In this document: positions 1-36,281 of the stretch, in pieces | How positions within the stretch are numbered: position 1 is the first letter of the stretch | Layout: each line of letters opens with the position of its first letter | Assembly: GCA_964019135.1 (NCBI GenBank) | Contig: OZ025249.1 | Coordinates: 14,533,088-14,597,087, forward strand | From: Arenicola marina | Lineage: Eukaryota > Annelida > Polychaeta > Arenicolidae | DNA length: 64,000 nucleotides | Reading direction: 5' to 3' | Program-made: the position numbers and the translations under genes | Notes under the pieces: generated by a model | The model's input: the letters and a program-made list of their open reading frames with translations, nothing else | Databases searched by the model: none | Told to the model about the DNA's origin: nothing

Positions 1-612
1 AGTCGGCGATGTTAGTCGATGTGGCGGCCAGGGAGGATGGGGGGAGTAGGTAGCAGGGGTGGAAAAAGTGTTAAGCCGTTAACACCGGGAGAATCAGGAG
101 TATACATCAAAGTGGTGCGACATGTTATTAAGATTAAAGATAAAAGTTAAAAGTTTTATTTAACGTCGTTATGTAAATGACTTGGTATGGTCAAGGAGGT
201 ATGGTCTCCTTGATTCTGCTCTCGCATGTACATAACAGCATTTTCATTTTTAATTCGCAGCTATGATTACGGCAAATTATTTAGACAATTTGAGATGCCA
301 GCGACGATCTCATTAACTTTAAAAGAGGTGAGATCGCTGGGGGGGATGGTGGGGGGGGGGGGGGGGGTAGCACGTGACACCGTGAAGTCGGGAATGTATA
401 TATATGGTCGAATGGATATCCTGATAATTTGTTTATGGGTTGTTTCCCAGTTGCAATTAGTAGATAACACACGTACGCATATTGCGGCTTCCGTAGGTCG
501 GTACCAGTAGGCCAGTAGCGGATATTTTGGTATAAAACGGTCTGATCTTCCACATAGCCGGTCTCATTTTGATGCTGTTGGCCACCCGCGTAGATCGCCG
601 TATTTTGCGGAA
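1..612. other. 5' flank, no gene recognised
   Basis: No open frame with a recognisable domain on either strand. A run of 17 G lies at 351-367, and the short open frames that cross it are products of that run. The first supported coding exon starts at 613. Confidence 0.5.
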
Positions 613-3277
613 ATGAGTTCGGATTTGTGTATTGTGTGCCAGACTACGGTACGGCCACGGCAAGAGGCATTACAGTGTGACGGGTGTGAATTCTGGCAAC
701 ACAGAACATGCGGAACGGGTGAGTCTTATTCGTTTGTCAGCGGGGCTTTCCTGTACGGTGATAATATATGATTTAGTCTATTGCGTAATATTGACACAGT
801 TAGACAATGTAATTGATAAATTTAACATTGTCATTTTTTATTTGGTCTGATCGTGAATAAATCACTGTGCGTCATCTTTCAGGGATCACCAGAGACGAGT
901 ACCGCAAACTGGTGCGGGAGGAGAGAACCATCGAGTGGCAATGCCATAATTGTACTCTGATTGTCAGCGAAAGATCGGTAAGTACCTTTACCTCTCAAAC
1001 ATTAATCATTCCAAATTAGTAGAACTTACATTTTAAGGATCGTGTGTAATATTATAATGAGTAATACTATCGATAAAGTACGATATCATCATGGTCAAAC
1101 TCATGGTTAACTTTTTATTCAGATAGCGGCCATAGATCCAGTGGCAAACAGCACATGCCACTTAATTTTGACTCCGGAACAGGCGGCTTCTGGTCACTTT
1201 GAACTTGACCATTCGTTTTCATTCGACATCATTATGGACATCATTATGGACACCATCACATTTAATTCAATGCATCTTTTGTCCCATATGTCACTCTTTA
1301 GAATTTCACGGAAGTAGACGTGACGCTGCCCGCCTTTGTGGAGCGGGAGGTTGTCCAGGAGGACACCCTGCTGGAAACCCCGGAGGCCACCGGAGATGTA
1401 TATGAGGACAAGCAATTTGAGCTTGTGGTCGAATCGTCTCAGCGAGGCCGATGCAAGCTGTACGAAAGGGCCGGCTACAGTTACAACATCAGCAGAAAAA
1501 ATGGTAAATTTCGTATCATCACCCGATTTTCATTATTGTCAGTATTTCCTTTGCAAAGTGACTAGATAACTTTTTCGTTAACGTGTCATCATTTGATTTC
1601 AAATTGACTTGAGTGATTGATTGCAGTATTATAATCGATTGATTGCAGTATTTTAATTAGTTGATTGCAGTATTATAATTAGTTGATTGCAGTATTATAA
1701 TTAATGTATATTTCAGATAAATGCACAATGTGGCGCTGCAGCGTGCGCAACGCCAATGTGAAGTGTAAAGCGACTGTGAAGCAAGTGGAGGGTGCCTTCA
1801 CCCCAGGGCCCCAGGTCCATACCCATTCGCCGCTATTGGGAGGTGCAGTAGCTGCCCGGATATCGAAGGATGTAAAGGAACAAGCGACGCGAGACCTGTT
1901 CAGGTATAACTAAAAAACTTGTCTGAAAGATAAAAATACTCCGCTTATTCTAGTTTTAGATTAACTATTATCTATTTATATAATTAACATTTTATTCCAA
2001 AGAGGTCAATACTGTATAATTGATAACAGATTGGGCTAATATACATACAATGCATATAATTTCCATTTCTGCTTTTTTTCGCATCAGTTCGGCATCTAAA
2101 CTGACGGAGGCCGCTCTAGACACGCATTTGGGTCCTGAGCCATGTCCTGCGCTGTCAACACTCCCATCGCTTCAACGGAAGACAAATTATGCCCGCCAGA
2201 AGAGCCGGCCTGTGGAACCACAGGACATGGACTTCGTCCTGCAGGACCAGCATATCCCGGAAGACTTCTTACAGACAGACGTAAAGGTCGACGGAAAGCG
2301 ACACATCATCCTGGCGACGTCCCGGCAACTCGATCTGCTGCTCCATGCCAAGGGTTGGTACGCCGACGGCACGTTCCGAGTCGTCCGCCAACCGTTCATG
2401 CAGCTCTGGTCTCTGCACGCCTTCGTCAGGGACGGCGATAAGTCCAAGCAAGTCCCGCTGGTCTTCTGTTTGATGACAAGTCGCAGGAGGGCCGATTATA
2501 AGGCCGTGGTGAGAGCCGTGCTCGACCTGCTGCCCAGGGATCCGGCGGTGCAGGAGGTCGTTCTGGACTTTGAGAAGGCAGCGTGGCGGGCGTTCGCGTC
2601 CGTTTTGCCCCAACTGCATATACGCGGATGTTCCTTCCACTGGGGCCAGGCCGTGTATAGGAAAACACAGGAGCTTGGCCTCAGTGGCGCGTACATGCAG
2701 AACAGGGGGACACACAAGCTAGTGAGACGACTGCTAGGTTTGAACCTCCTTCCGGCTGAACACATCGCTCCTGTCTTCGAAAAGTTGGCCGTGAAGGCGG
2801 ATGAAGGCGCCACGAAGGACCTACTGGAGTACGTCCGGAAGAACTGGATTCAAAGCACCGTCTGGCCGCCAACGCACTGGTCAGGCTTCGGCCTCGGCAT
2901 CAGGACGAACAATGACGTAGAGGGATGGCATACTCGTCTCCGTTCCCGAGGGAAGGCGAATATTCTACCTTCTGGTGGAAGTGCTCCACAAGGAGGCCGA
3001 ATCCATCCTCGTCACTTTGCGTCTATTGTTCGAGGGGAAACTGTGCCGGATGCAGCGACAGCGGTGGTGTGGCGAGTTCACCACGAGATGTGGCGAGATA
3101 TGGCGAGTTCACCAGAAAATGTGGCGAGTTCACCGGTCCGTTTGTGGCGAGTTCTCTTGTGGCGAGTTCGTTTTGTGGCGAGTTATCTGTAAACCCCCAC
3201 ACACACACATTGGCAATCACGGGCGACTGGCTCTGCACGTTCACTTCAACCAGTACTGCATTCTAACTCCAGTTTAG
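613..3277 (+). CDS. PHD finger-FLYWCH-MULE transposase-domain protein (multi-exon, frame broken near 3' end)
   Basis: Proposed exons: 613-718, 883-977, 1302-1503, 1717-1903 and 2088 to about 3277, joined in phases 1, 0, 1 and 2 by GT-AG introns. Exons 1-2 give a PHD-type zinc finger (CIVC, CDGC, FWQHRTC, CHNC). Exons 3-4 give a FLYWCH-like finger (MWRCSV, then Cys, then HTHSP). The last exon carries a MULE transposase domain with DGTF, LDFEKAAW, FHWGQAVY and NDVEGWH, so plausible D, D and E residues are all present. After DVEGWH (about 2935-2965) the homologous reading moves to another frame (FYLLVEVLHKEAESIL, 2963 onward), so this copy carries a frameshift, a sequence error or an unseen intron. 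The 3' end then runs into short repeats. I see no terminal inverted repeats next to it, so it is either a host gene derived from a MULE or a decayed transposase. The start at 613 is the first Met before the PHD finger; upstream exons are possible. Confidence 0.7.
1615..1702 (+). repeat. 22-bp tandem repeat next to a 3' splice site
   Basis: Four copies of a 22-bp unit containing TTGATTGCAGTATT lie 14 bp before the acceptor of the second FLYWCH exon (1717). Each unit has a CAG, but with a poor pyrimidine tract. Confidence 0.85.
3065..3185 (+). repeat. Short degenerate repeat GTGGCGAGTTCACC
   Basis: Seven or more imperfect copies of a GGCGAGTT-containing unit sit at the end of the MULE-domain exon. 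They make the C-terminal protein sequence here unreliable. Confidence 0.7.
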
Positions 3278-3368: not shown

Positions 3369-3447
3369 ATGGCGTCCGGTGGAGGGAGGTGCCACTTCCT
3401 GGTAGCCGCCATCACCTGTATGGTCATAGCCAGATATAACGTCTCAG
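3369..3447 (+). CDS. Receptor exon 1: signal peptide
   Basis: Encodes a short polar start, then the hydrophobic stretch FLVAAITCMVIA, and ends at CAG|GTGGGT in phase 1. It is separated from exon 2 by a 4.6-kb intron that is mostly minisatellite, so the link rests on phase and leader character. Confidence 0.6.
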
Positions 3448-6400
3448 GTGGGTGACAGAATCACTATCAGACAGTCATATCAACTCTTCCAATACCAATA
3501 TATGTATGTACATAAGTTTCTATATCGTGATGTATAATATATATATCTTGGATATAGATATCACATATATACACCATAGGATGACGTCTGGCTGTCTAAG
3601 TCGTATTAATCAATCGGTCATGTGGAAGAGCAATATACCTATATCAGGTATTGTTCACGTATTGCTCCAACCTCAAACCAAACACTGAGGCTCGATACGC
3701 TTTGAATTTAGCTATGGTTGGTTGGTTAAGTAGCACGCTTTGACCGAGGTATGGCATATCGTGACGATGTGAACGGTATAGAGAACCCCTGTCTCCCTGA
3801 GTCTTGCGAAATGTATGGGTTATTTAGCGTGCACAAACATATGTATTTGCATAGATGGGGTTCGAACCACGCACCAACGCTTGGGCTATTAGAACAAAAA
3901 TAGTCGATAGCCAAAGATACACCACGTCGACACGACACCACGTCGACAGCCAGTCACCTGACACCACATCGACAGCCAGTGACACGACACCACGTCGACA
4001 GCCAGTGACACGACACCATGTCGACAGCCAGTGACACAACGCCACGTCGAAAGCCAGTGACACGACACCACGCAGTGACACGAGACCACGTCAACAGCCA
4101 GTGACACGACACCACGTCGACATCCAGTGACACACCACCTCGACAGTCAGTGACATGACCCCACGTCGACAGCCAGTGACACGACACCACGTCGACAGCC
4201 AGTGACATGACACCACGTCGACAGCCAGTGACACGAGACCACGTCGACAGCCAGTGACATGACACCACGTCGACAGCCATTGACACGACACAACGTCGAC
4301 AGGCATTGACACGACACAACGTCGACAGCCATTGACACAACACCACGTCGAACGCCTGTGACACCGACGCCACGTCGAACGCCAGTGACACCGACGCCAC
4401 GTCGAACGCCAGTGACACCGACTCCACGTCGACAGCCAGTGACACGACACCACGTCGACAGCCATTGACACAACACCACGTGAACAGCCATTGACACGAC
4501 ACAACGTCGACAGTCACTGACACGACACCACGTTGACAGTCAGTGACACGACACCACGTCGATAGTCAGTGACACACCACGTCGACAGTCAGTGACACGA
4601 CACCACGTCGACATCCAGTGACACGACACCACTTCGAACGCCAGTGACACCGACGCCACGTCGAACGCCAGTGACACCGACGCCACGTCGAACGCCAGTG
4701 ACACCGACGCCACGTCGACAGCCAGTGACACGACACCACGTCGACAGTCAGTGACACACCACGTCGACAGCCATTGACACGACACCACGTCGAACGCCAG
4801 TGACACCGACGCCACGTCGAACGCGAGTGACACCGACGCCACGTTGACAGCCAGTGACACGACACCACGTCGACAGCCAGTGACACGACACCACGTCGAC
4901 AGCCAGTGACACGACACCACGTCGACAGCCAGTGCCACGACACCACGTCGACAGCCAGTGACAAAACACCATGTCGACAGTCAGTGACACACCACGTGGA
5001 CAGCCATTGACACGAAACCACGTCGACCGCCAGTGACACCGACGCCACGTCGAACGCCAGTGACACCGACGTCAGGTCGAACGCCAGTGACACCGACGCC
5101 ACGACGACAGCCAGTGACAAGACTCCACCTCGACAGCCATTGACACGACACAACGTCGACAGTCAGTGACACGACACCATATTGACAACCAGTGACACGA
5201 CACCACGTCCACAGCCAGTGACACGACTCTACGTCGACAGTTAGTGACACACCACGTGGACAGCCATTGACACGACACCACGTCGAACGCCAGTGACACC
5301 GACGCCTCGTCGAAAGCCAGTGACTCCGACACCACGTCGAACGCCAGTGACACCGACGCCACGTCGAACGCCAGTGACACCGACGCCACGTCGACACCCA
5401 GTGACACGACACCACGTCGAAGGCCAGTGACACGACACCACGTCGGCAGCCGATGACACGACACCACGTCGACAGCTAGTGACACGAGACCCCGTCGACA
5501 GTCAGTGATACACCACGTCGACAGCCACTTACACGACACCACGTCGAAACCCAGTGACACGACACCACGTCGACAGCCAGTGACACGACACCACGTCGAC
5601 AATCAGTGACACGACACCACGTCGACAGCCATTGGCATGACACCACGTTGACAGCCAGTGACACAACACCACGTCGACAATGATTGACACACCACGTCGA
5701 CAGCCATTGACACGACACAACGTCGACAGTCAGTGACACGACACCACGTCGACAGCCAGTGACACGACACCACGTCGACAGCCATTGGCATGACACCACG
5801 TTGACAGCCAGTGACACAACACCACGTCGACAATGATTGACACACCACGTCGACAGCCATTGACACGACACAACGTCGACAGTCAGTGACACGACACCAC
5901 GTCGACAGCCAGTGACACGACACCACGTCGACAGTCAGTGACACGACACCACGTCGACAGCCATTGACACGACAACACGTCGACAGCCATTGACACGACA
6001 ACACGTCGACAGCCAGTGACACGACACCACGTCGAACGCCAGTGACACCGACGCCACGTCGACAGCCAGTGACACGACACCACGTCGACAGTCAGTGACA
6101 CAACACCACCTGAACAGCCATTGACACGACACAACGTCGACAGCCATTGACACGACACCACGTCGAACGTCAGTGACACCGACGCCACGTCGAACGCCAG
6201 TGACCCCGACGCCACGTCGAACGCCAGTGACACCGACGCCACGTCGGACGCCAGTGACACGACACAACGTCGATAGTCAGTGACATGACACCACGTTGAC
6301 AACCAGTGACATGACACCACGTCGACAGCCAGTGACACGACACCACGTCGACAGTCAGTGACACGACACCACGTCGAACGCCAGTAACACCGACACCTCG

Positions 6401-9400
6401 TCGAAAGCCAGTGACACCGACACCACGTCGAACGCCAGTGACACCGACGCCACGTCGAACGCCAGTGACACCGACGCCACGTCGAACGCCAGTGACACCG
6501 ACGCCACGTCGACACCCAGTGACACGACACCACGTCGATAGCCAGTGACACGACACCACGTCGGCAGCCGATGACACGACACCACGTCGACAGCTAGTGA
6601 CACGAGACCCCGTCGACAGTCAGTGATACACCACGTCGACAGCCATTCACACGACACCACGTCGAAACCCAGTGACACGACACCACGTCGACAGCCAGTG
6701 ACACGACACCACGTCGACAGTCAGTGACACGACACCACGTCGACAGCCATTGGCATGACACCACGTTGACAGCCAGTGACACAACACCACGTCGACAATG
6801 ATTGACACACCACGTCGACAGCCATTGACACGACACAACGTCGACAGTCAGTGACACGACACCACGTCGACAGCCAGTGACACGACACCACGTCGACAGC
6901 CATTGGCATGACACCACGTTGACAGCCAGTGACACAACACCACGTCGACAATGATTGACACAACACGTCGACAGCCATTGACACGACACAACGTCGACAG
7001 TCAGTGACACGACACCACGTCGACAGCCAGTGACACGACACCACGTCGACAGTCAGTGACACGACACCACGTCGACAGCCATTGACACGACAACACGTCG
7101 ACAGCCATTGACACGACAACACGTCGACAGCCAGTGACACGACACCACGTCGAACGCCAGTGACACCGACGCCACGTCGACAGCCAGTGACACGACACCA
7201 CGTCGACAGTCAGTGACACAACACCACCTGAACAGCCATTGACACGACACAACGTCGACAGCCATTGACACGACACCACGTCGAACGTCAGTGACACCGA
7301 CGCCACGTCGAACGCCAGTGACACCGACGCCACGTCGAACGCCAGTGACACCGACGCCACGTCGGACGCCAGTGACACGACACAACGTCGATAGTCAGTG
7401 ACATGACACCACGTTGACAACCAGTGACATGACACCACGTCGACAGCCAGTGACACGACACCACGTCGACAGTCAGTGACACGACACCACGTCGAATGCC
7501 AGTAACACCGACACCTCGTCGAAAGCCAGTGACACCGACACCACGTCGAACGCCAGTGACACCGACGCCACGTCGAACGCCAGTGACACCGACGCCACGT
7601 CGACAGCCAGTGACACGACACCACGTCGAACGCCAGTGACACCGACGCCACGTCGAACGCCAGTGACACGGACACCACGTCGAACGCCAGTGACACCGAC
7701 GCCACGTCGAACGCCAGTGACACGGACACCACGTCGAACGCTAGTGACACCGACACCATGTCGACAGCCAGTGACACGACACCACGTCGGCAGCCAGTGA
7801 CACCACGTGTACAGCAGGAGACGTACCAATGTGAAGTACAAGTATTTTGTATATATCCCCTTGACCAATATCTATGGATCATTATATTATTTGTTCTATG
7901 AATGCAAAGACTGACAATGTCATTCAATATAAAGTTTCACCTTGTTAAATTGTACACTTGATTCACGAGTAGGCTTGAAAGGTTTCTACGCATGTAAATT
8001 TTGAATCCTTTCCATGTTTCGTAGGCGCCTGTCTGTTCGGGAAGACTTCGGACTGTGAATTCACGTGTCACTGTGCCGGTGGCGACGCCTGTGATCCGGA
8101 CACGGGAGTCTGTCAGGACGAGTGTGCTGAGGACAGTCCTGGTCTGTTCACCTGGAGCGGAGAGGCCTGTCAGATAGGTAAACATTTATCCATCGATTAT
8201 ACTGTTCATAATCCGAAACGGAACTCACCAGGGCACCAATCATTTTTTTTAAATAGCTCACGTAATTCCCGCGTGCCCTATATTGGCGGTGAGGCGATAA
8301 ACGAGAAATACTAACTGCTCAATTGAACCCCTTTATACTTAGGGTTTGCCTAATGTAAGTATGTATACATAATTATTTCAAGGAAAATATTATATTCTGC
8401 AAAACATATAATTGGACGCTGTGTCAGACAGTCTCAGTGTACAAATCCACGTACAGTAACTTGCACATAATTGAGAGAGTGATTGAAGACAACACCAACG
8501 GTCGGTTGTCAATAGGATCAGTCAGTATAATATTGTGCTGTGCACCTTCTAGATATGTAAATCTTAATAGTTCGATGGAATAAGAAATAGATGTGTGTGC
8601 ATGTTTTCAGATATACCAGGATTTACAATATCCTGCGTTTTCCAAAAAATTATCAACTTTACTAGTCTTTATATAGAACCGGGATATGTGGTTTGGTTTC
8701 GCTTTGGACTGGACGAGGGGTGGCCTACAGTTGTTATATTCTCTGTGGACGGGACGTGGACGGCCTACAGTTGTCATATTCCCCATGGACGGGACGTGGG
8801 ACGGCCTACAGTTGTTATATTCCCTATGGACGGGGCGACGGGCGGCTTACAGTTGTTATATTCCCTGTGGACGGGGCGACGGGCGGCCTACAGTTGTTAT
8901 ATTCCCTGTGGACGGGACAATGGGCTGCCTACAGTTGTTATATTTCCATGTGGACGGGACGAGGGGCGGCCTACAGTTGTTATATTCTCTGTGGACGGGA
9001 CGATAGGCGGCCTACAGTTGTTATATTCTCTGTGGGCGGGACGAGGGGCGGCCTACAGTTGTTGTATTCCGTGTGGACGGGACGAGGGGCTGCCTACAGT
9101 TGTTAAATTCCCAGTGGGCGGGACATGGGCGGCCTACAGTTGGTATATTCCCTGTAGACGGGACGAGGGGCGGCCTACATTTGTTATATTCACTGTGGAC
9201 GGGACGAGGGGGGGGGGCTACAGTTGTTATATTTACTGTGGACGGGACGAGGGGCGGCCTACAGTTGTTATATTCACTGTGGACGGGACGAGGGGCGGCC
9301 TACAGTTGTTATAATCCCTGTGGACGGGGCGAGGGGCGGCCTACAGTTGTTATAATCCGTGTGGTCGGGACGAGGAGCGGCCTACAGTTGTTATATTCCC

Positions 9401-12400
9401 TGTGGACGGGATGAGGGGCGGCCTACAGTAATATCATATGTTTGTATCAGGTAACGTGGCACGTGATAAGGACACCAACCAGACAAGGGCGTACGTTAAG
9501 TTGATCAGTGCGTACGCCGTTGATGGAACAGTCGTTGACAGCATTCACACCAGCCAATATAACATCTGCGCTCACCCTGACGCGTCAGGGAATAACCACG
9601 CTATGTGGACCGTGGACCTCGGCGGCGACTACGTCATCCACAACGTCACGGTCTTCAACACCAACGAATTCGGCGGTGAGTTATTTTGTACTGAAGGATT
9701 AGTGATAATGTCAGTAATCGAATCAAATTTCTTTTCGTAACTTTCTATTGTTCAGCACGTCGGTCAGTTTGCGATCGCCCTTCTGACCAAACAGGCACAT
9801 TTTAAGACTGACATTCCAAAAATATCGACCCACCCGGAATGGTTCACTGCGATGAACTTTCAGGCACGTATTTATACCAAAAATATTTGAACCATTGCCA
9901 AATGCTTTGTATCTAAACTGTTATTGTATAATCCACTCAGCAAACAAACAGCAACAAAAGCGTGGATCCTCCCCTCGATATCAGAGTTCTTGAGAATGAC
10001 ACTTAAAGTGTCAGCAGCTTTGTGTTAATATCCAAATAAAGGCTTATTATTGACTAAAAGTTTCTAGCAATTGGCTTCATATGCGTCACGTGACGCCTAG
10101 AAGGCGTCAACATAACGAAAGTGACCAAATTGATATAGCTTTGAATTATATGAATTTGGCGGTTGAAACAGAGTTCAAAGACGCTACAATTGAGCGTTCA
10201 GTCCAGCTTTCATCCACTATATATCTCCGCCACATCTGCAAATGCAGTGACATGGCGTTTCGCACGTTAAATGCTCATAAAATAAAAGGAAAAAGTATGT
10301 CTAGTTTCCAAGGTCGAATCCGAACCCGCTAACACAAGACGTGCCCAAGACGGCCACAGACAACAGTGTGATAGATTTATTTATGAAACGGATAAACTAT
10401 ACAAGTATATATACAACTATACCGTGTGATAGCGATGACGGTGATGGACGGTGGTGGACGCTTATCCCGTAGCCCTTAATTGGCTCCGCAAGGCGATGAA
10501 TTTCCTAATTCCGTCTCCAATTACTCCGCAACAACGTTCTCTTCTCTTTCTCTCCCGCTTTCCCAACTCACATAGACACCAACCAAAACTCTATGCGCCC
10601 GAAAACGGACCCGAATTTTATTTTGTCTTACCGTCTAGTGATGTTTAAATGATGTATTGTCTCTGTATTGTCTCTGCCTGATTGTCAATTCAAATAAAAC
10701 ACAAAACAAAAAACGCCTGGAAATAACCGAAATTTCCGAAATCACGTCATAATCTATAGCACAGATGTATATATTTGTGTGACTGTATAGACCAAATAAA
10801 ACGGCAGAATGTTTTGTATTTTGTGTGTTACTAGTTGTCACTGCACAAGTCTTATGCATTGTCCAGTAATATCCAAATCGGTTGCTAAATAGACAGCCCC
10901 TTTGCTTCCTCGTGTTTTAGTTCAAGTATTATTATACGTAATCCCTGGTTGTACGTACTCCTCGTCCAATTATAATATTGATACCAATTGACAACGTTCA
11001 TGTTTGCATATGGACATAAAACTGGAATTCAGTCAACGGGTTGGTGTCGAAACGTTATTGTAAATGACCTACCACATTTCCACCAGGTCGGATGTTTTTG
11101 GCTGACTTTGATGTGGTTGTGACGGGAGGACCATCCGGGTACCACTCATGTGGTCACTACGACGGAACCGTACCTCAGGCCTCCACTAGTGACGCCTGGA
11201 GAGGTACAGCCAACATCAGCTGTGACGCACATCCGATCGGCAGATACGTCATCATTGAGAAGACTGACGGCAACAGACCTGATCTAATGACGCTGTGTGA
11301 GGTTGTAGTCACCGGACATAAGTACCACAGTAAGTATCCTACCGTTGTACCTTCCTTTTAATCGGCCTAACTAAGTCACGCCTTGATTTCTTTGACGTAT
11401 ATTCTCATTCAGTAAATATAAGGTTTTATAAACAATTTTCATATTAGTGATACACACGAAGCAGAAAGCTGACCACACACACTTACGCGTGCATTTGGAT
11501 ATTTTGTTTGGTGCACAGTCAAAGTATTACCATAACGTTCCACAGATTGTGATGGATGTCAGGACTGTTTTCTGGTCCTTGTGTTCCACAGGTTGTGATG
11601 AGTGTCCCCAGGGCTGTGCTCTTGTTCTTGTGTTCCACAGGTTGTGGTGAGTGTCAGGACTATTTTCTTGTCCTTATGTTCCACAGGTTGCGGTCAGTGT
11701 CAGGACTATTTTCTTGTCCTTATGTTCCACAGGTTGTGGTGAGTGTCAGGACTATTTTCTTGTCCTTATGTTCCACAGGTTGCGGCCAGTGTCGGAACTG
11801 TTCGCAAGTCATTGGATGTCGTTCGTGTTCTGCTTACGGATTAAAGAGGCCGCAGTGCAAGGAAGGTAAGTCTCATTCCGCTACGTAACAAATGGTAATA
11901 TTACTTTGCAACACAATCTTCCCTCACCAACAATTCTTCCACTGGGCTAGTTAATAGCTTTGTCAATGAGAATGATAAATGCCGGTATTACTGTGTAAAT
12001 ACAAAGTACAAAGTGTTACTGTACAATTATCATTAATTAATATATACGGCCATGTTCAAACATTTTTTTTTGTATGACTGGTTAGCGGAAAAGTGTGGCT
12101 TTCTAGTGTGCTACGTCATCACAATTCAGACATCGTTACCACATTGACCGTTTGCCATGATACCGCTTACATTTATTAAAGAGTTCGTATTAGCAAGATC
12201 AGACCGTATGTCAAATAACCATGACTTCCCTTGTGGTAGGCTTTCTCTACATTTGGTTTACGTTTCAGCGTGTGACGTCGGGACGTACGGCCTGAACTGT
12301 GCCGAGAGCTGCACCGGACGTTGTGTGAGCGGCGACCCCAACAGCTGTTCACCCAGTGACGGGTCGTGTCCCGGCGGGTGTCAGGAGTGGTACACGGGAA

Positions 12401-15400
12401 CCATCTGCGGCGTCTTCATAGGTAAGTATGGCTGTGGCGATCCTTCCACAGTACCACCACACTAAAATGTTCATGGCTAACCCGGTAACCAATCTTAGAC
12501 CAATCATCTTACAATCTTGTACAAAAGTATTCTCTGACATATCCCTCCGGTAGGCTTCGTGGAATGGTCACTAATACGATAAAGTCTGATCTACCCCCCA
12601 CTCCCTCCATCCCCTCCACTTAATATGTACTAACGTTGACAGTAGTACAATAATTGTGTCCCATACAAAAGAAATACTTGCTCTCTGCTAATAATCACTC
12701 ATATTACAACATGATGTGGCTTAATACATACAGCCTGTCATGAAGGACCTTTGTAGATGAATAGATTCTGATTGTTCTCGATTTGGTTAAGATTGTCTCA
12801 CATGTTGCACACCTGATTCCCCATGTGTGTATCTTGACCGGGAAAAGCGCAGTTATGAACAAAGGGCCGGTCTACAAACCATGGTGCACGACTGCGTCTC
12901 AATCGCGAACTTATTTTTTGGTGGCTCCTGTGCTAGCGACCTTCTTGGTCTTCATGGGAGTTCCCAGAGTGAGAATTTATCTTGGTTTGCATTTCGTGTT
13001 TGTATTGGTTCTTGCTCAAATAAATTATATTGAATCTGAATCTTTTGATGAAACTATTGCATTTGGACATAAAGATATGAACAGGATTTTGCTTCTTGGC
13101 ATGGTTAAGGTCAACTTAACCCCATCAGTGGTCGATATATTGAGCATTGAGTTAATATTGGGAGCTTTGTGATGGTTTTTTGACCATAGTGCTACATGAT
13201 TCATGGTGCTCTAAAACATCTGTATCCCATACTCTATAGGGCTGTTAAATAACCTTGATCGTTATTACTTGGCGTGCATGTGTTGTTATTTTGAAACGTA
13301 ACTAAGCCGTATCGTTTATACGTTATAGGTTGGCGTTCTTGCACGAAGTAGATACGTAAATCCGCAGCGCTGTTTGACATATGCTTGCTCGCTTATCACG
13401 TTACTCCCGTGAGTCTGCAGCTCGTTTTCCCCCGATAATAATACAAGGAACACCGTAGGTGGAGATACTTGGCCAATTTATTTGACGTGCGGTCAAGGCT
13501 TAAACATCCGCCTTGACCGCCTAAAACTCTACCATGGCGTAAGGTGGGGCTACAACCGGCCAACTCAAGATGGATTAACAGAATACGATAAAAGCAGTTT
13601 GCAAACAAATACACATTACAAGATACTTAACAAGTACAACTGTCTTACAAAGGGATGGTGGGTGGGCTTCGCAGGAAAAAATCCGCTCTTCTTAAAGTTT
13701 ACTGCCTGAATGACGCTATCCGCTATCCAAACAATTAACGCGCGCGGCTTGCCGTATGCTTCGAAAGAGACGCCCCCCACCACCCTCCCCCGCGCAGACA
13801 CGAACCTCATACATGCACATACCTTGCAGTACAAATCTATAGGCTATATTAATGGCATTGAGGGGCAAGACGGTATAAATGTCCTTACGTGTTTAACCCG
13901 TAAGTATCGATTTAGACTAGCGAAGTACAGAAAAGTTCATTCTCGCTAAAATAATTAAATACAAATTTATTGGATAGGCTACAATACCAGCAAAATGTGT
14001 AATAGTTGAATAATAACAGTGGTCGGTAGTCAAGACTAAATAATGTACATTTGTGCCACGCTTGGCGAAACTTTACATTTTCCAGCTTTCCCTCGTAATA
14101 ACGGCGAGAACGTGACTCGCGGGAGTGTGGGGAGTTCGTCCGTGGGGGTCGTCTGGGAGCAGAACAAGAACCTACCTGAGGGAGCGGAGACTCACTACGG
14201 CTACCGGATCAGCTACAGTACTAGTGGCTCCGGCGACAGTAACGGTCCGGACGTCCCGCATAGCAGTGGCGACACCTGGCGAATGGAAACCATCTCCGGT
14301 CTGACACCCAACACCATCTATGACTTTAAAGTGGAGCAGTACAGGACCTGGGGCGGTGTGAGAGAGAACGGAGACACTTTGGACGGACCATCAGTCACGA
14401 CCCTGTCACAACCCAGTGAGTTTAACACCTGGATATAATGAAGAGTTATCTTTTCGTATACAGCCATTAGTGTTACCGCCCCATGTTATTGTTCACCGGT
14501 GAATCTCGATAACCGAGTACAGTTCCTCTTGCAATGTTTGCTATAATATCCCAGCTTACTTGCTTATGGACGATATGAATGATCGTTATAAGACGGCATT
14601 AAAACCTGTAGACGTACCATGGTGGCAAGGCATCAGTTGGAACCTGCTATGTAGTTAACGAACGAGCTGAATTAAAGTACGGGACTCGACAACGTCGCTT
14701 TTGATTGTGAATAGCCTTTCACACACTTGTGTGTTGAAGCAATTAATGCTGTTAAACCATCAATGCATTTTGCGCACTGAATCTTCTGATGGTGTCGGTC
14801 CAACATTTCTAACTATGATCATGATTGTTTGTACAACAACAAGTTTCTTTTCATATTTCTTGATGCTCCAAATTGTAGGTGCGTCCCCGACGACAAAACT
14901 CCCACCACTCACGGAAGGTGAGTGACGCCCCTAACCAAGTTAGTTATCTAAATGTTATACTGTCTGTAGTTATGATTGTCGCTATGTGGTGTAGATTTGT
15001 TTATCCTTCTTGACATGCACAACTTATTGTTTTAGAGTGTACCCCAATTCCGACCTTCTAATTTTGTCTCTCGTATTTCTGCCCTGATCAGCAACTGTCC
15101 ACCGGCAGCTTGTGATGTGACGGATCGAAAATATGAAACTCAATGCCGAAATGTAAATAGACGCATAAGGACAGCGTTTGGGGGTGTAACGCCAATTGTT
15201 ATCACTGTCTTCAAAATTCAATGTGGAACCATGCCAGAATTAAACGTAACTCACCACTGAGAAGATAATCTTGACAGTTGATCGAAATCGCGATTTTTGG
15301 CGGTGGTGTCGTTGTGTTTACCTTGAGCGATCAATAGCGAACTACCAACAAACAAAAATGCCTCACATTTCTGTGTGCACCAATTAGCTGTTGTAGATAC

Positions 15401-16305
15401 GTCCCCTGTGACAACGCCCTTACGTCTCACGAAAGGTAAGCGAAGCTGCTAACCAATTTCGTACTTTGAACGATAGATAATTTTTCGTTCCTTAATTATG
15501 ATATATTATTGTAAATGATAACAAATAAGGTATAACTGCGCGTACCGTTTGGCAAGCTTCTCTTGACTAAAATAGATCCCTTTGATTGAACACGTGTATC
15601 TTTTCTCTCCATAGCCATCAATATTGATTTGCTATCGATATTTATATTTGTTATATCCGTCATGACATTGGTACCGCTACTACATGTCTCTACTTTTCGC
15701 GTTACTCAGAAGATACCACAGTCTTTCCCTTCGCCTTGCTGGGCTGTGCTGTGGTCGTCATGGTGATCCTGGGTACGGCGCTGGTCGTGGCCGTCGTCAG
15801 GCACCGTGGATGTCGCGGGGTCTTCAACCCGTCTCCAAACAAACAACGATCAACGTCGGTGGAGATCCCGTCAGCTGAGGACACAAGGCGATCCACAGCG
15901 CCACCTAGCGAGCCGGCCGGGGTACCAAGCGAATTTATTCGCCACGGGAACATGGAGGGTGGCTACGAAACCCTAGGGGAAAGGGTTCGTATATATTTTA
16001 ACTTCAAATAGGAGAAGTATCATGCAACTTATTATGAATGACCGCAGAAGGAGTGGCGTTATGGGGTTGTATTAAAGCGATGAGTCGACATGCATGGCCT
16101 GTACATATATTATAAATATTCATGAATTCCGACTATATCACAAAAGAAACCTGTTTTTCTCGCCACCTGCCCTTTCGACGCTATGGGGCTTGTAAGTGCA
16201 TAATTATTCACTCGCACATTTTATCACATCTTTTCAATTATACAGGATCCCGAGTACGTCAATCCGGGAACAATATACGCTGACATCAGGGATCCCAGTA
16301 CCTGA
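3369..16305 (+). CDS. Type I receptor: EGF-like / F-type-lectin-like / EGF / FN3 / TM / tyrosine-motif tail (11 exons, 560 aa)
   Basis: Exons: 3369-3447, 8025-8177, 9451-9675, 11087-11329, 11779-11865, 12269-12421, 14086-14415, 14879-14917, 15397-15435, 15710-15984, 16246-16305. They total 1683 nt, giving one open frame of 560 codons plus stop. All sites are GT-AG; introns 1-9 are phase 1 and intron 10 is phase 0 with a weak GTTCGT donor. Residues: 1-26 signal peptide, 27-77 EGF-like, 78-233 F-type-lectin/F5-8-like, 234-262 Cys-rich, 263-313 EGF-like, 314-423 FN3, 424-449 Thr/Pro stalk, 455-479 transmembrane, 480-560 cytoplasmic. The tail has Y535 (YETL), Y545 (YVNP, a pYxN Grb2-type site) and Y552 (TIYADI, ITIM-like). 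No kinase or phosphatase domain follows. Family knowledge suggests a surface recognition receptor signalling through SH2 proteins; the ligand is unknown. Exon 1 is chosen because its Met follows a good context (AACATGG), it encodes a hydrophobic leader, and its phase matches exon 2. Three broken relatives lie downstream. Confidence 0.78.
3905..7805. repeat. 3.9-kb minisatellite in receptor intron 1 with 1118-bp higher-order repeat
   Basis: Roughly 150 units of 23-27 bp. The main types are a 26-bp unit (ACCACGTCGACAGCCAGTG core) and a 27-bp unit (GCCACGTCGAACGCCAGTG core). From about 5282 the pattern of variants repeats at an offset of 1118 bp (5282-6399, 6400-7517, then a partial copy). The long minus-strand open frames across it arise because the units lack stop codons there. 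Confidence 0.95.
8025..8177 (+). CDS. Receptor exon 2: EGF-like module
   Basis: 51 codons, phase 1-1, with eight cysteines in the order ACLFG, SDCEFTCHC, DACDPDTGVC, ECAED, EACQIG. The pattern resembles laminin-type/MEGF EGF modules. Close copies occur at 31404-31556 (+) and 35830-35982 (-). Confidence 0.8.
   Translation, partial: APVCSGRLRTVNSRVTVPVATPVIRTRESVRTSVLRTVLVCSPGAERPVR
8707..9430 (+). repeat. 41-bp tandem array in receptor intron 2
   Basis: About 18 copies of a unit containing GACGGGACGAGGGGCGGCC and TACAGTTGTTATATTC. It stops about 20 bp before the exon 3 acceptor. The G-tracts are dense enough to form G-quadruplexes on the plus strand. Confidence 0.92.
9451..9675 (+). CDS. Receptor exon 3: F-type-lectin/F5-8-like domain, N-terminal half
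   Basis: 75 codons, phase 1-1: GNVARDKDTNQTR, YAVDGTVVDS, CAHPDAS, then MWTVDLGGDYVIHNVTVFN. The WxVDL strand followed by VTVFN is the core of fucolectin/galactose-binding folds. Copies at 32544-32768 (+) and 34448-34672 (-) have the same length and boundaries. Confidence 0.8.
11087..11329 (+). CDS. Receptor exon 4: F-type-lectin-like domain, C-terminal half
   Basis: 81 codons, phase 1-1. It continues exon 3 with FLADFDVVVTGG, ISCDAHPIGRYVIIEKT and the closing strand LMTLCEVVVTG typical of fucolectin-related domains. I do not see the canonical fucose-binding Arg-Gly-Asp-Cys-Cys segment, so sugar binding cannot be assumed. No counterpart of this exon was found in the downstream copies. Confidence 0.78.
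11538..11778 (+). repeat. 46-bp tandem array of 3' splice sites before exon 5
   Basis: TTCCACAG recurs with its AG ending at 11545, 11591, 11640, 11686, 11732 and 11778 (spacings 46, 49, 46, 46, 46). Each unit holds a pyrimidine-rich stretch, the acceptor and a copy of the first ~20 nt of exon 5. The last acceptor is the one used in the gene model. Confidence 0.9.
11779..11865 (+). CDS. Receptor exon 5: short Cys-rich module
   Basis: 29 codons, phase 1-1, with six cysteines (CGQCRNC, GCRSCSAYG, PQCKE). Its 5' end is the template of the upstream 46-bp splice-site array. Confidence 0.72.
12269..12421 (+). CDS. Receptor exon 6: MEGF-type EGF-like module
   Basis: 51 codons, phase 1-1: CDVGTYGLNCAESCTGRC, CSPSDGSCPGGCQEWYTG, ICGVF. 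This is the classic MEGF/scavenger-receptor EGF spacing. Confidence 0.82.
12905..13045 (+). mobile_element. LINE 3'-end fragment in intron 6
   Basis: Matches 62080-62243: both share GGCTCCT-TGCTAGCGACC, a GTCTTCAT/GTCTTAAT segment, and an end reading CTCAAATAAAT(T/G)ATATTGAAT. Such an end is typical of a 5'-truncated non-LTR retrotransposon whose tail is a short repeat rather than poly(A). Confidence 0.65.
14086..14415 (+). CDS. Receptor exon 7: fibronectin type III domain
   Basis: 110 codons, phase 1-1, a complete FN3 in one exon. The B-strand Trp lies in VGVVWEQ, the C-strand in YGYRISYS, and the F-strand signature is ISGLTPNTIYDFKV. Confidence 0.85.
14879..14917 (+). CDS. Receptor exon 8: Thr/Pro stalk mini-exon
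   Basis: 13 codons, phase 1-1, encoding SPTTKLPPLTE. Likely an O-glycosylated juxtamembrane stalk. It is a duplicate of exon 9. Confidence 0.68.
15397..15435 (+). CDS. Receptor exon 9: second stalk mini-exon
   Basis: 13 codons, phase 1-1, encoding TSPVTTPLRLTK. Same length as exon 8, with related sequence at both splice sites (TTGTAG before, CTAACCAA after the donor), so the two arose by local duplication. Confidence 0.68.
15710..15984 (+). CDS. Receptor exon 10: transmembrane segment and proximal tail
   Basis: Starts phase 1 and ends phase 0. A hydrophobic helix of about 25 residues (FPFALLG through LVVAVV) is followed by the stop-transfer RHRGCR. A Ser/Pro-rich tail then ends in GGYETLGER. 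If the weak donor were not used, translation would run nine codons further to a stop at 16009-16011, giving a tail without the last two tyrosines. Confidence 0.8.
16246..16305 (+). CDS. Receptor exon 11: terminal tyrosine-motif exon
   Basis: Acceptor TATACAG, then 19 codons DPEYVNPGTIYADIRDPST and a TGA at 16303-16305. It supplies YVNP and TIYADI. The alternative phase would give no tyrosine motif and a quick stop, which supports the chosen donor. Confidence 0.68.
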   Translation, partial: DPEYVNPGTIYADIRDPST

Positions 16306-16600
16306 ACCAGGGATCGGTGTACGCTGACATCATTGATCCCAGTGCCTGAACCAGGGATCAGTGTACGCTGACATCATTGATCCCAGTGCCTGAACCAGGG
16401 ATCAGTGTACGCTGACATCAGGAATCCCAGCACCTGAACCACGGATCAGTGTACGATGACATCAGGTTTCCCAGTGCCTAAACCAGGGATCAGTGTACGC
16501 CGACATCAGGGATCCCAATACCTGAACCAGGGATCAGTGTACGCTGACATGAGGAATCCCAGTACCTGAACCAGGGATCAATGTACGACATCATGGATCT
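16246..16600 (+). repeat. 44-bp minisatellite growing out of the last coding exon
   Basis: The GCTGACAT landmark recurs at 16279, 16323, 16367, 16411, 16455, 16499, 16543 and 16587: eight units of exactly 44 bp. The first overlaps the coding end of the receptor. Most later units still spell SVYADI followed by DPS and a stop in one frame. Confidence 0.9.
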
Positions 16601-31080: not shown

Positions 31081-31403
31081 AGTAAAGTCTCACACCCGAC
31101 CACATTCATCGCCGTCAGATGTGTGACACAGCCACAATGTCCATATTAACAACCCAGAACATGATGTTTGCTGCAATAGCTTTGATGTTGATGCAGTAGC
31201 GTTGATGCAGCTTTTGTAATGCAACTGTCAGGCACATGAACCAGCCCCGCCCCAGCCCAACGCGGTATGCCGGGTTGATCGTAATTATTTATGCAGTTTG
31301 AAATCGAAATGTTCTGTTTTTAACGGAAGGCAAATCAGTGCCGGTGACATTCACACCTTCTCATTTAAGCATGCTTACACTATAGTTTACTTTCCCCAAT
31401 TAG

Positions 31404-31556
31404 CCGCGTGTCTGTTCGGGACGGCTTCGGACTGTGAGTTCCAGTGTCACTGTGCCGGTGGCGCCACCTGTGATCCGGACACGGGAGTCTGTCCGGGAGA
31501 GTGTGCTCAGGACAATCCTGGTCTGTTCACCTGGAGCGGCGAGGCCTGTCAGATAG
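31404..31556 (+). CDS. Copy 2 exon 2: EGF-like module, open
   Basis: Acceptor CAATTAG, donor ATAG|GTAAGG, 51 codons, phase 1-1. Nearly identical in protein to receptor exon 2, with all eight cysteines kept. Confidence 0.7.
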   Translation, partial: PRVCSGRLRTVSSSVTVPVAPPVIRTRESVRESVLRTILVCSPGAARPVR

Positions 31557-32009
31557 GTAAGGTGTGGTCGACACCACCTGTCTATGGTATCAATTGGATG
31601 ACATATATATATATCGGTTGAAGTTCGCAGTCGAACGTGTATTTGTGTTGGCAAGGTGTCCATGGCCTACAGCACGATGGCCGGCCATGCAGACATTAAA
31701 ATCGCTAGTAATTATCATAACATGGATCATAGCGTGGAACACGTACGATAGGCAAGTTAAAGTCCATACTTCAAAATCATGTGTTAAAGATGCACCGTGG
31801 AAATGTTTGATGACCCCATTCTGAACTCCCATAGGCCGCTGAGACGCTGTAACTAGATCTAACTGGCACTTGCAAATCATATCGAATGAACCATAGTGAT
31901 CAACAGTCAGAGGCATGGTGGACCTATATTCGTTTGTATACTTTAGGTGTCGACCCCATACATGTGTATATAAAACATAAACCAAGATGAGAGTACAGAT
32001 GATCTCTCC

Positions 32010-32075
32010 GTAAGTGTAGCTTAATTGGTAAGCAGGCTGAGCTACATATCATCGTGGGTTCCAACGTAGCTACCT
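32010..32075 (+). mobile_element. tRNA-like element
   Basis: GTAGCTTAATTGGTAAGCAG (box A) then CGTGGGTTCCAACG (box B). The reverse-complement partner in the middle arm is at 35250-35392. Acceptor stem pairing is poor, so it is treated as a SINE. Confidence 0.5.
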
Positions 32076-32543
32076 TCATTTTGGCGTGATGCTCTTTCAA
32101 ATTGCTCTTATCATCCCACCGAGCCGAGGCCGAGACCATACACGTGACAAAATATGTATTCTGATAAAGCAGCCTATATTTCGAACTAATACCGCTCAAC
32201 ATATATGAATACAGAAATATAATGATCGAACCGATCTATCATCAAGTGCAATAAATGACATTTTTAAGAAAAGGCATCCTCATTTGATGGTAAACAGATG
32301 AAATCAACAATAATAGTGTCGTAAATGGGAAAGTAAATCGATAAATAATGTGGCTATAAAGCCGTGATGCACGTAACTAATACATTCATAGTGATATTTC
32401 TACCGACCAGACTGGGTTGTTAAATACAGTGTACAGTGCTGAGACCTTTAAAGGGAAGGTCATTGACGGTGTGTCTTCCTTCATCTTGACGCGGACACAG
32501 CTCCATGTTTAGTAATACCGCTACATATCAACTGTTTTATCAG

Positions 32544-32768
32544 GTAACGTGGCCCGTGGTAAGTCCACCAACCAGACGGGAGCGTACGACATATTGTACA
32601 GTGATCAGGCTGTCGATGGGGAGGTCATTGACGGTACACACAGCGATCAGCGGTATGTTTGCGCTCACACTGACGCGGGGGACGGAAATCACGCCAAGTG
32701 GACTGTGGACCTCGCCGGCGACTACGTCATCCACAATGTCACGGTCTTCAACTCCAACAATGCCGGAG
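32544..32768 (+). CDS. Copy 2 exon 3: F-type-lectin-like half-domain, open
   Basis: Acceptor TTTATCAG, donor GAG|GTGAGT, 75 codons, phase 1-1, keeping WTVDLAGDYVIHNVTVFN. Confidence 0.7.
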
Positions 32769-33074
32769 GTGAGTTACTTTAAACTATTTAATTAACTCAG
32801 GAAGATTTGATACCAACGGATGAACTACTGTTCCAGTACAATGTTATAATCTTCACCACAATGCCTACTTAGTAACGCCTGTCCTACACATTTCATGTTC
32901 TTGGCCTGCATGTTTTGAAAGATGCACTGACTCGTGTTGTCATATCATTTCACCAATCACAATCAATGCGTCAGACAGTTCAGTGAAGATGTGAAAAATG
33001 CTGATGCATATGGGTTTGTCACGTTCGCTTCATTGGTCGCCTGTCAAACTCAAAGCTTTTATTAAGGACGTTGT

Positions 33075-34120: not shown

Positions 34121-34447
34121 TATCGACGTCCTTAAGACGTTGGAGTTTGACATGCGATCAAAGAGCGAAAGTCGCAAACCCATATGCATCAACTTTTGAC
34201 ACCGTAGATTTTCCTCATTAACAGAAGACTTCACTGAACCGACTGACGTAATGATTGTGATTGGTGAAATGATGGCAACACGAGTCAGAGCATCTTTTAA
34301 AACATGCCGGCCGAGAACATGAAAAGGCGTAGAACAGGCGTTAGTAAGTAGGCATTGTGGTGAAGACTATAACATTAAACTGGAACAGTAGTTCATCCGT
34401 TGGTATCAAATCTTCCTGGGTTGAATAAATGGTTTAAAGTAACTCAC

Positions 34448-34672
34448 CTCCGCCATCGTATGTGTTGAAGACCGTGACGTTGTGGATGACGTAGTCGCCG
34501 CCGAGGTCCACGGTCCACTTGGAGTGGTTTCCCCAACTCGCTTCAGGGTAAGCGCAGTCATACACCTGGTGGTTGGGTCTATCGTCAATGATCTCCCCAT
34601 CGACAGCCTTATAACTGAACCGTATGTCGTCCCTTCCCGTCTGGTTGGTTGGCTTATCACGAGCCACATTAC
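34448..34672 (-). CDS. Copy 3 exon 3: F-type-lectin-like half-domain, open
   Basis: Acceptor TTCCACCAG, donor GAG|GTGAGT, 75 codons, phase 1-1, with WTVDLGGDYVIHNVTVFN. Confidence 0.7.
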
Positions 34673-35198
34673 CTGGTGGAACAGTTTATATACATGGTAT
34701 TATTCCCATAGCGCTGTGTCCGCGTCAAGGTGAAAGCAGACACACCCATGAGCGATCAACGACTGTCAATGACCTTCCCATCGAAGGTCCCATCACTGTA
34801 CACTGTATTTAACAACCCGGTCTGATCGGTGGGCTTACCACGGCCCTAGACATCTAGATAGTTATCACTATGAATGTATTATTTTTGTGCATCTTCGCTT
34901 TATACCTACATTATTTACCCATTTATTTTCAGATTTGTGACATTATTATTGTTGAATCCATATGTTTACCAACAAATGAAGATGAATTTTCTTGATGGTT
35001 AAAAATGTCATTTATTGCACTTGATGATAGATCGATTCGATCTATTCGAACTTATCGCTCTCAACATATATGTATACAGAAATATATTTCTGTATTCATA
35101 AATTTTGAGAGGTAATAGTTCGAAATATAGGCCGCTTTATCAAAATACATATTTGGTCGTGTTTATCGTCTCGGCCGCGAATCGGTGGGATGAAAAGA

Positions 35199-35392
35199 CT
35201 AATTTAAAAGAGCCTCACGCCAAAATGAAGGTAGCTGGCTTGGAACCCAAGACCTGATGATATGTAGCTCAGCCTGCTTACCAACTAAGCTACACGACTA
35301 ATTTAAAAGAGCCTCACGCCAAAATGAAGGGAGCTGGCTTGGAACCCACGACCTGATGATATGTAGCTCAGCCTGCTTACCAACCAAGCTAC
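35199..35392 (-). repeat. ~98-bp tandem duplication of a tRNA-like unit
   Basis: Two adjacent copies of the same unit. Minus strand: GTAGCTTAGTTGGTAAGCAG, then TCGTGGGTTCCAAGCC. The left-arm partner at 32010 is single, so the duplication is later. Confidence 0.8.
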
Positions 35393-35829
35393 ACGTACGG
35401 AGAGATCATTTGCACTCTCATCTTGGTTTATGATTAATTATATTTTAGGTCTACACCTAAAGTATACACACGAATACGGGTCCATCATGCCTCTTACCGT
35501 TGATCACTATGGTTCATTCGATATGATCTGTAAGTGGCAGTTAGATGTAGATACAGCGTCTCGGCGTCATCAAACACTTCCACGGTGCCTCTTTGACACA
35601 TAACTCATATGTTAGGTACGGACTTTAATGTGCCTATCCTATATGTTCCACTCTATGTTCAACGTTATGATATCATTAGCAATATGTCTGTATGGGCGGC
35701 CATCGTGTTGTAGTACATGGACTACTTGCCAAAACAAACGCATACACGCTTCACCGCAAACTTAATTCGACGGATATATGTGTGTCATCCAATTGATACC
35801 ATAGACAGGCGGTGTCGATCACCCCTTAC

Positions 35830-35982
35830 CTATTTGACAGGCCTCTCCGCTCCAGGGGAACATACCAGGACTGTCCTGAGCACACTCTCCCGGACAGACT
35901 CCCGTGTCCGGATCACAGGTGGCGCCACCGACACAGTGACACTTGAACTCACAGTCCGAATCCCACCCGAACAGACATGCGG
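35830..35982 (-). CDS. Copy 3 exon 2: EGF-like module, open
   Basis: Acceptor CAATTAG, donor ATAG|GTAAGG, 51 codons, phase 1-1, eight cysteines conserved. Confidence 0.7.
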   Translation of the reverse strand, partial: PHVCSGGIRTVSSSVTVSVAPPVIRTRESVRESVLRTVLVCSPGAERPVK

Positions 35983-36281
35983 CTAATTGAGGAAAATAAA
36001 CTATAGTGTAAGACAAAAACAAGCATCCTTAAATAAGAAGGTGTGAATGTCACCGACATACCTATTTGCCTTCGGTTAATAACAGAACATTTCGATTTTA
36101 AACTATATAAATAATTACGAGTAACCCGGCATGCCGCGTTGGGCTGGGGTGGGGCTGGTTCATGTGCCTGTAAGTTGCATTACAATAGCTACATCAGGTT
36201 CGGGGTTGTTAATATGGACATTGTGGCTGTGTCATGCATATGACGGCGATGAAAGTGGTCGGGTGTGAGTCTTTACTTAGA

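Follow-up and report, generated by a model that had tools for sequence, protein, structure and literature searches.

Within a 64,000-nucleotide stretch of the 867 Mb Arenicola marina genome (C2:14533088-14597087, where C2 is contig OZ025249.1; hereafter the window), we examined a gene predicted to encode a single-pass receptor with a lectin-like ectodomain and a tail carrying three tyrosines. The sequence characteristics of this gene and its relatives indicate that it is probably a member of a clustered, fast-diversifying family of recognition receptors of the paired type. Based on exon matches, it belongs to a 1.6 Mb cluster of about thirty related genes, in three of which exons 2-11 were verified to be open. 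Differences between recent copies appear to fall mostly in the aligned binding loops of the lectin domain. Immune or allorecognition use is what we infer for the family. The cluster, the variable exon, and the exchange of exons between its members were not part of an earlier, preliminary description of the gene.

Architecture of the window receptor

The eleven exons of the window gene (Table 1) join into an uninterrupted frame of 1683 nucleotides (nt), corresponding to 560 codons plus a stop, when the joined exons are translated. The frame starts with the ATG at 3369, and its TGA stop ends at 16305. All introns have GT..AG borders, and junctions 1-9 are in phase 1 while junction 10 is in phase 0; the agreement of all splice phases had been noted in the preliminary description. 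The donor of intron 10 (GTTCGT) is weak; a GT at the donor place and the acceptor are retained in all eight tails inspected, including that of the window. Exons 2-11 are likewise open with AG/GT borders in two additional copies on the same contig, located at C2:14.14 Mb (copy 2) and C2:14.19 Mb (copy 3), with the window gene designated copy 1. Exon 1 is present in copy 2, where 2 of 79 nt differ; for copy 3, the 1 kb of sequence that was read did not reveal it. At the level of sequence, these data confirm an eleven-exon gene for a 560-residue receptor.

A Pfam scan of the predicted protein produced matches above the cut-off to an F5/F8-type domain (PF22633, 4.6e-7) and to the fibronectin type III (FN3) domain (9.6e-6), whereas no EGF, Ig, or kinase family was matched up to E=1. 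Thus, of the ectodomain labels assigned previously, FN3 stands and EGF has no Pfam support to that threshold, and kinship with Tie/MEGF proteins, which are marked by a tyrosine kinase domain (Tie) or many EGF repeats (MEGF), is not supported. The labels “EGF” and “Cys-rich” as used here were judged by eye from the cysteine pattern.

The prediction that residues 78-233 resemble an F-type lectin fared better. A profile built from 13 paralogs was searched against the PDB and matched Sm-hPAF (4e-7 and 6e-7), FBP32 (7.5e-7), and the entry 1k12 “LECTIN” (7.5e-5), which we take to be the eel lectin AAA. Nothing but F-lectins was matched in the PDB at E<=0.01. These results confirm, by profile comparison, that residues 78-233 form a diverged F-type lectin. 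Four cysteine columns are invariant among the paralogs (A1 columns 40, 97, 121, and 146), and their pairing with AAA residues C50, C108, C124, and C146 rests on the alignment. This alignment includes a two-residue shift made by hand that places Cys117-Ala-His119 onto C50-T-H52, with the histidine positioned as in the Sm-hPAF alignment.

In a study of oyster sperm bindin, the fucose motif of F-lectins is given as HX24RXDX4(R/K), and the fucose pocket is said to be ringed by five complementarity-determining region (CDR) loops (PMC5712786). The motif histidine, His119, is invariant in the paralogs, and the last basic place is occupied by F, W, R, or A. Within the cation motif h2DGx, all paralogs share AVDG, whereas the x position holds T, L, E, or K rather than N, D, or S.

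The cytoplasmic tail contains the three motifs reported originally (YETL, YVNP, and TIYADI). Among 11 closely related tails, including that of the window, the first motif is YETL in nine, YESL in one, and YLTL in one, such that all fit Y[EL][ST]L. All 11 also carry PxYVNP, and nine carry TIYADI or TIYTDI (TIY[AT]DI); all three tyrosines and their spacing are retained in nine of the 11. The consensus for an immunoreceptor tyrosine-based switch motif (ITSM) is TxYxx(V/I), which TIYADI fits, and YxN is a Grb2-type consensus. Exon 10 exhibits a ratio of replacement to silent substitution rates (dN/dS) of 0.25-0.78 against six paralogs, with two more dropped for indels. The tails of two deep paralogs, B and D, contain YENV, YENP, and ALYEDI or SLYEDV, with spacings of 10 and 7, as in the window gene, if the same donor is assumed. 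Deep paralog D, which ends in SLYEDV, is the only one among the tails read to match the strict pattern of an immunoreceptor tyrosine-based inhibition motif (ITIM), (S/I/V/L)xYxx(I/V/L). Read as an immunoreceptor tyrosine-based activation motif (ITAM), YETL-x13-YADI would exceed the spacing limit by one residue.

An array of 44-nt degenerate exon 11 units follows the tail and, when exon 11 is included, spans 16245-16587 with 7.8 copies. Other frames of the array read GSVYADI, which is an ITIM pattern, and single-base slips could therefore create a longer tyrosine tail. In one relative (L035), a Trp codon occupies the position of the first stop, and the frame stays open beyond it. We also considered whether exon 11 is itself an accident of this array. 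This explanation was rejected because a matching exon occurs in deep paralogs B and D, where no comparable array was seen in the sequence that was read.

A gene cluster with variable exons and phosphatase-bearing sisters

Genome searches with individual exons reveal the extent of the family, with all match counts being lower bounds because the best candidates alone were scored. The FN3 exon yields at least 25 DNA matches, and all those listed reside in C2:13.53-15.05 Mb, on both strands and with 74-100% identity (two of those listed span only 116 nt). At least 71 matches were obtained with the lectin-exon query, which by count include at least 33 of exon 3, at least 2 of truncated exon 3, and at least 28 of exon 4 in the cluster, and at least 8 elsewhere. 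The membrane/tail-exon query gives at least 33 matches, with all those listed on C2:13.47-14.73 Mb. Two of the 33 correspond to exon 11, and another four represent two loci that were each matched in pieces, leaving about 29 tail loci as a lower bound. Finally, at least 36 matches at E<=1 were recovered with the terminal exon, all listed ones on C2:13.85-14.73 Mb; judged by their positions, 15 of these are terminal exons, and array copies account for most of the remainder.

From intron 3 onward, the three copies are nearly identical outside of a few exons. Introns 3-10 of copies 1-3 are 99.6-99.7% identical, and exons 5 and 7-10 together are 99.5-99.9% identical. In contrast, exon 3 of copies 1 and 2, the clearest example, differs at 22 of 225 nt (9.8%), versus 21 of 5404 in introns 3-10 (p 3e-20). 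The flanks of exon 3 in the same pair differ at 9 of 1234 aligned positions in intron 2 (with 625 gapped columns) and at 6 of 1411 in intron 3, and exons 5 and 7-10 differ at 3 of 770. The alignments of intron 2 to those of copies 2 and 3 are heavily gapped. Divergence above that of introns 3-10 is also seen in exons 4 and 6. In the three pairs of copies 1-3, exon 4 differs at 6, 5, and 5 of 243 nt and exon 6 at 7, 10, and 5 of 153 nt (4.6% between copies 1 and 2), with p values for the excess from 4e-3 to 3e-10. Replacement differences outnumber silent differences by 14 to 2 in exon 4 and by 20 to 2 in exon 6, when summed over these three non-independent pairs.

This pattern extends to two further groups of recent copies, wherein exon 3 is more divergent than its flanks in 13 of 13 non-independent pairs (p<0.05 in 10). 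Member 14420, whose flanks do not align, was left out of this comparison. In the group designated a-f, the exon 4 proteins are alike except for their first residues and one site, whereas exon 3 varies. From 21 copies of exon 3, we excluded two that are truncated, one that measures 222 nt, and one with a 29-nt deletion; the remaining 17 full-length exons encode 16 distinct proteins. Variability is highest at residues 85, 91-94, 104, 111, 114-115, 121, 123-124, and 150-152. By alignment with AAA, residues 91-94 correspond to CDR1, 111-115 to CDR2, 121-124 to the loop after the histidine, and 150-152 to CDR4.

Two cluster members, P1 and P2, carry the same ectodomain layout joined to protein tyrosine phosphatase (PTP) exons, which bears out the resemblance to receptor phosphatases noted at the outset. 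Their layout was taken from exon content and not from exon-by-exon splicing. The PTP signature of both genes is split by an intron and is canonical (VVHC/SAGVGRTGTF), and the joined phosphatase pieces of P1 match PF00102 at 3.4e-53. A reading of the signature as VVCSAGVG, which would imply dead enzymes, was rejected because the intron divides the signature and the preceding exon ends with VVHC. Among the matches listed, P1 and P2 hold the only two PTP exons in the cluster. Searching the window with the phosphatase exons of P1 yielded nothing credible (best E 0.2). Within the window, readthrough past 16305 to a catalytic domain is thus rejected, consistent with the tail as first described.

Across the genome, PTP exons give at least 155 matches, with 150 of 774 first-look candidates scored. 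Large arrays of such exons occur at C1:43, C2:10-11, 24 and 40, C7, and C8. F-lectin matches also lie near PTP matches at C2:24.2-24.7 Mb, C2:45.0 Mb, and C17:16.1-16.2 Mb. This suggests, without proving, that a receptor phosphatase bearing a lectin came first.

The two kinds of receptor have also exchanged exons in at least one case. Copy 3, which has a tyrosine tail, is identical to P1 over 300 of 300 nt, comprising the 200 nt preceding exon 3 and its first 100 nt. Over about 1.3 kb upstream of exon 3, the two sequences differ at 13 positions, excluding gapped columns (140 in the whole alignment). Exon 3 itself has six mismatches, of which four lie within or next to CDR3 and the other two within CDR4. 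Copy 3 tracks copies 1 and 2 from about nt 236 onward, with the breakpoint situated near the 3′ end of exon 3. Across exons 2-3, copy 3 and P1 are about 99% identical, and the resemblance switches abruptly thereafter. On this alignment evidence (P1 was read to 14026200), copy 3 recently acquired the exon 2-3 region of the phosphatase gene, by crossing-over or conversion.

Selection, exchange, and alternative explanations

Diversified loops combined with conserved tail tyrosines fit a recognition receptor. Judged by sequence, family members carry a diverged F-type lectin on an FN3 stem and end in either a short tail with three tyrosines (about 29 loci) or a canonical receptor-type PTP (two loci found, P1 and P2). 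We propose that the lectin loops bind varying ligands, either glycans or glycoproteins, that are carried by other cells or by microbes. Once phosphorylated, Y545 (YxN) could recruit a Grb2-type SH2 protein, and Y552 (TxYxxI, the ITSM pattern) could recruit an SH2 adaptor or a SHP-type phosphatase. Phosphatase-type members would damp the same pathway, such that both kinds act as paired receptors, and ligand ranges would pass between the two kinds by gene conversion or crossing-over. The most likely use would be self/non-self recognition, either immune or allogeneic.

Substitution patterns in exon 3 are consistent with this proposal. When residues 89-96, 109-116, 120-128, and 148-152 (30 of 75 codons) are grouped as loops, dN/dS over 10 recent pairs is 1.36 for loops and 0.47 for framework. 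However, a series of observations weighs against our interpretation. The loops were grouped after the variation had been seen, and their placement comes from alignment rather than from a model. When all 120 pairs of 16 sequences are used, loop dN/dS is 0.84 (framework 0.43), and for the pair h1/h2 it is 0.51. The silent rate (dS) of recent pairs is also raised in loops, at 0.139 versus 0.052 for framework, and so selection alone is insufficient to account for the pattern. In addition to selection, the raised silent rate suggests conversion by divergent sister genes or mutation acting locally. Hypermutation of the AID or retroelement type was a further candidate; directed changes are few. Exon 3 of copy 3 differs from those of copies 1 and 2 at 59 and 56 of 225 nt, and this divergence of 25-26% is due to the exchange with P1 rather than to local change. 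Copies B and D share an identical exon 3.

Other observations are also unfavorable. The fucose motif is broken, with Thr at the place of the first Arg in 13 of 13 aligned members (A1 column 71). Two of the 11 near tails (L031 and L032) read YVNPYLDI, with PYLDI in place of TIYADI, and the terminal exon was seen in only two (B and D) of the four deep paralogs read. In exon 11, copy 2 differs from copies 1 and 3 at 3 of 60 nt. The FN3 domain is loosely constrained (dN/dS 0.49-1.16 against five paralogs), and exon 6 of copy 3 is missing two of its cysteines. Apparently broken copies include one with a 29-nt deletion in exon 3, one with a stop in exon 4, and stops within three tail-exon matches. 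Moreover, the ectodomains of P1 and the window gene are not near-identical, with protein identities of 73% for exon 4 and 79% for FN3.

Several of these findings would be expected if the cluster were an ordinary tandem expansion of receptor phosphatases, wherein members lacking catalytic exons drift and gene conversion has redistributed older paralog divergence in exon 3, with no recognition repertoire. The raised silent change in loops, the loop ratio over all 120 pairs, the broken copies, and the abundance of PTP exons in the genome all favor this explanation, as does the failure of 147 of 861 two-state site pairs in the four-gamete test. We nevertheless regard it as unlikely, because tail tyrosines are retained in near and in two deep paralogs, and because exons 5 and 7-10 match one another as closely as the introns do, which does not hold for exons 3, 4, and 6. 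In addition, dN/dS of recent pairs exceeds 1 in loops and not in framework.

A gamete-recognition family, whose variable lectin loops serve sperm-egg binding as in oyster bindin and whose tail is adhesive or minor, is a possibility that we hold in similarly low regard. Bindin is described as residing in the sperm acrosome and having one to five F-lectin repeats (PMC5712786). In contrast, the window protein has one lectin domain, an FN3 domain, a membrane helix, and a tail with conserved tyrosines, and its sister genes bear a phosphatase.

A bolder version of the recognition-receptor proposal is that the cluster operates as an anticipatory system. Exon 3 would be the variable segment, and short-tract conversion, occurring in germ-line or perhaps even somatic cells, would rewrite its loops from sisters and from cassettes that hold exons 2-3 alone (two in the window, along with the truncated exon 3 copies that precede two genes). 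The same variable exon would then be set on activating-type tyrosine or phosphatase tails. We consider this to be a long shot. It is improbable that copies 1-3 are falsely duplicated assembly haplotypes with allelic variability at fewer loci, despite their near-identical introns and offsets of about 400 and 352 kb that hold across several exons, given that all lie on one 61.5 Mb contig with others on both strands at many distances, that copy 3 is chimeric with P1, and that exon 3 would even then be unusually variable between alleles.

Associated features and relation to known systems

Coordinates of the receptor exons and related features are collected in Table 1. The facing exon 2-3-only fragments are possibly donor cassettes or debris, and their exon 3 pair recurs at C2:14213115 and 14215003. 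A second, truncated exon 3 with its acceptor precedes the full exon by 185 bp in copy 2 and by 169 bp in a gene at 13.66 Mb (L039 and L062, respectively). A 26-bp satellite with about 149 copies (3929-7803) occupies most of intron 1, and a 41-bp satellite with about 18 copies (8698-9429) lies within intron 2. A 46-bp array at 11537-11793 looks, by eye, like repeats of the splice acceptor of exon 5 and the beginning of that exon. Three additional observations were also made by eye. Positions 612-3000 appear to encode a PHD-like Cys-rich start and a long open stretch resembling a MULE-type transposase-derived gene; a reverse-transcriptase-like open frame is located just downstream of the receptor tail in L035; and the mitochondrial contig (C762, L070), which carries cox1 in the invertebrate code, has a nad3-like stretch upstream, a gene order that may hint at a lophotrochozoan host. 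No tRNA was reported for this contig under bacterial settings.

Table 1. Receptor exons and related features; positions are those of the window unless given with C2.
Feature	Position	Strand	Description
Exon 1	3369..3447	+	Start codon, signal-peptide-like stretch (by eye), residues 1-26
Exon 2	8025..8177	+	Cys-rich module, residues 27-77
Exon 3	9451..9675	+	F-type-lectin-like domain, first half, residues 78-152; variable exon
Exon 4	11087..11329	+	Lectin-like domain, second half, residues 153-233
Exon 5	11779..11865	+	Short Cys-rich module, residues 234-262
Exon 6	12269..12421	+	EGF-like Cys-rich module without Pfam EGF match, residues 263-313; second variable exon
Exon 7	14086..14415	+	FN3 domain, residues 314-423
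Exon 8	14879..14917	+	Pro/Thr stalk (exons 8-9, residues 424-449)
Exon 9	15397..15435	+	Pro/Thr stalk
Exon 10	15710..15984	+	Transmembrane helix (by eye) and juxtamembrane region, residues 450-541; Y535 (YETL)
Exon 11	16246..16305	+	Y545 (YVNP), Y552 (TIYADI), stop; tail ends at residue 560
3′ array	16306..16587	+	44-nt units, out-of-frame degenerate exon 11 copies
Partial paralog	31382..32779	+	Matches exon 2 (31382-31564) and exon 3 (32543-32779) only
Partial paralog	34437..36004	-	Matches exon 2 (36004-35825) and exon 3 (34673-34437) only; faces the preceding paralog
Paralog P1	C2:14013700-14026200	-	Lectin, Cys-rich, EGF-like, FN3, other membrane helix, phosphatase exons on one strand
Paralog P2	C2:15047800-15064300	+	Lectin, Cys-rich, EGF-like, FN3, other membrane helix, phosphatase exons on one strand

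The window family shares individual features with several known systems. Receptor-type tyrosine phosphatases also have an FN3 stem, and the FN3 domain of the window receptor has a weak PDB match to that of PTPRF (6x39, E 0.018). Sisters P1 and P2 carry PTP exons, whereas no PTP exon of the window gene was found in the window, and its membrane helix and tail are distinct. Receptors of the SLAM-family/PD-1 type have Ig ectodomains and ITSMs, whose TxYxx(V/I) pattern is fitted by TIYADI. Hydractinia Alr proteins likewise have Ig-type ectodomains. The window receptor, in which no Ig family was detected by Pfam up to E=1, lacks an ectodomain of this type or of the type found in fester co-receptors (FcoR).

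The FcoR of Botryllus are type I receptors 520-610 residues in length, described as forming a large multigene family that is encoded at one polymorphic locus and tied to allorecognition (PMC12065747). As in the window family, the genes are clustered and the tails carry tyrosine motifs of the YxxI/L/V type (PMC12065747). However, FcoR have Ig and sushi ectodomains, ITIM or hemITAM tails, and a chordate host, in contrast to the F-lectin/FN3 ectodomain and phosphatase sisters of the window family. Siglec-11 and Siglec-16 form an inhibitory and activating pair whose lectin exon is reported to be kept alike by repeated gene conversion (PMC5701461). This pair indicates that lectin-exon conversion can keep paired receptors matched. 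The Siglecs are Ig-fold sialic-acid lectins encoded by two genes, whereas the window family comprises about thirty genes, uses an F-type lectin whose loops vary, and has a phosphatase for its alternative output. For oyster bindin, residues of the F-lectin binding face are reported to diversify by selection and recombination (PMC5712786), a likeness that is offset by its being an acrosomal gamete lectin.

Neither F-lectin receptor phosphatases nor such a cluster appeared in the titles and abstract starts returned by text searches of open-access PubMed Central, several of which were poorly aimed. Diversified recognition receptors are known from Ig, LRR (leucine-rich repeat), fibrinogen, and a few other folds. 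If our interpretation is correct, an F-type lectin on a signaling receptor, with variable exons exchanged between phosphatase-bearing and tyrosine-tailed sisters, would represent a further independent route to a recognition repertoire. The cluster would then also provide testable genes for immune or allogeneic recognition in invertebrates.

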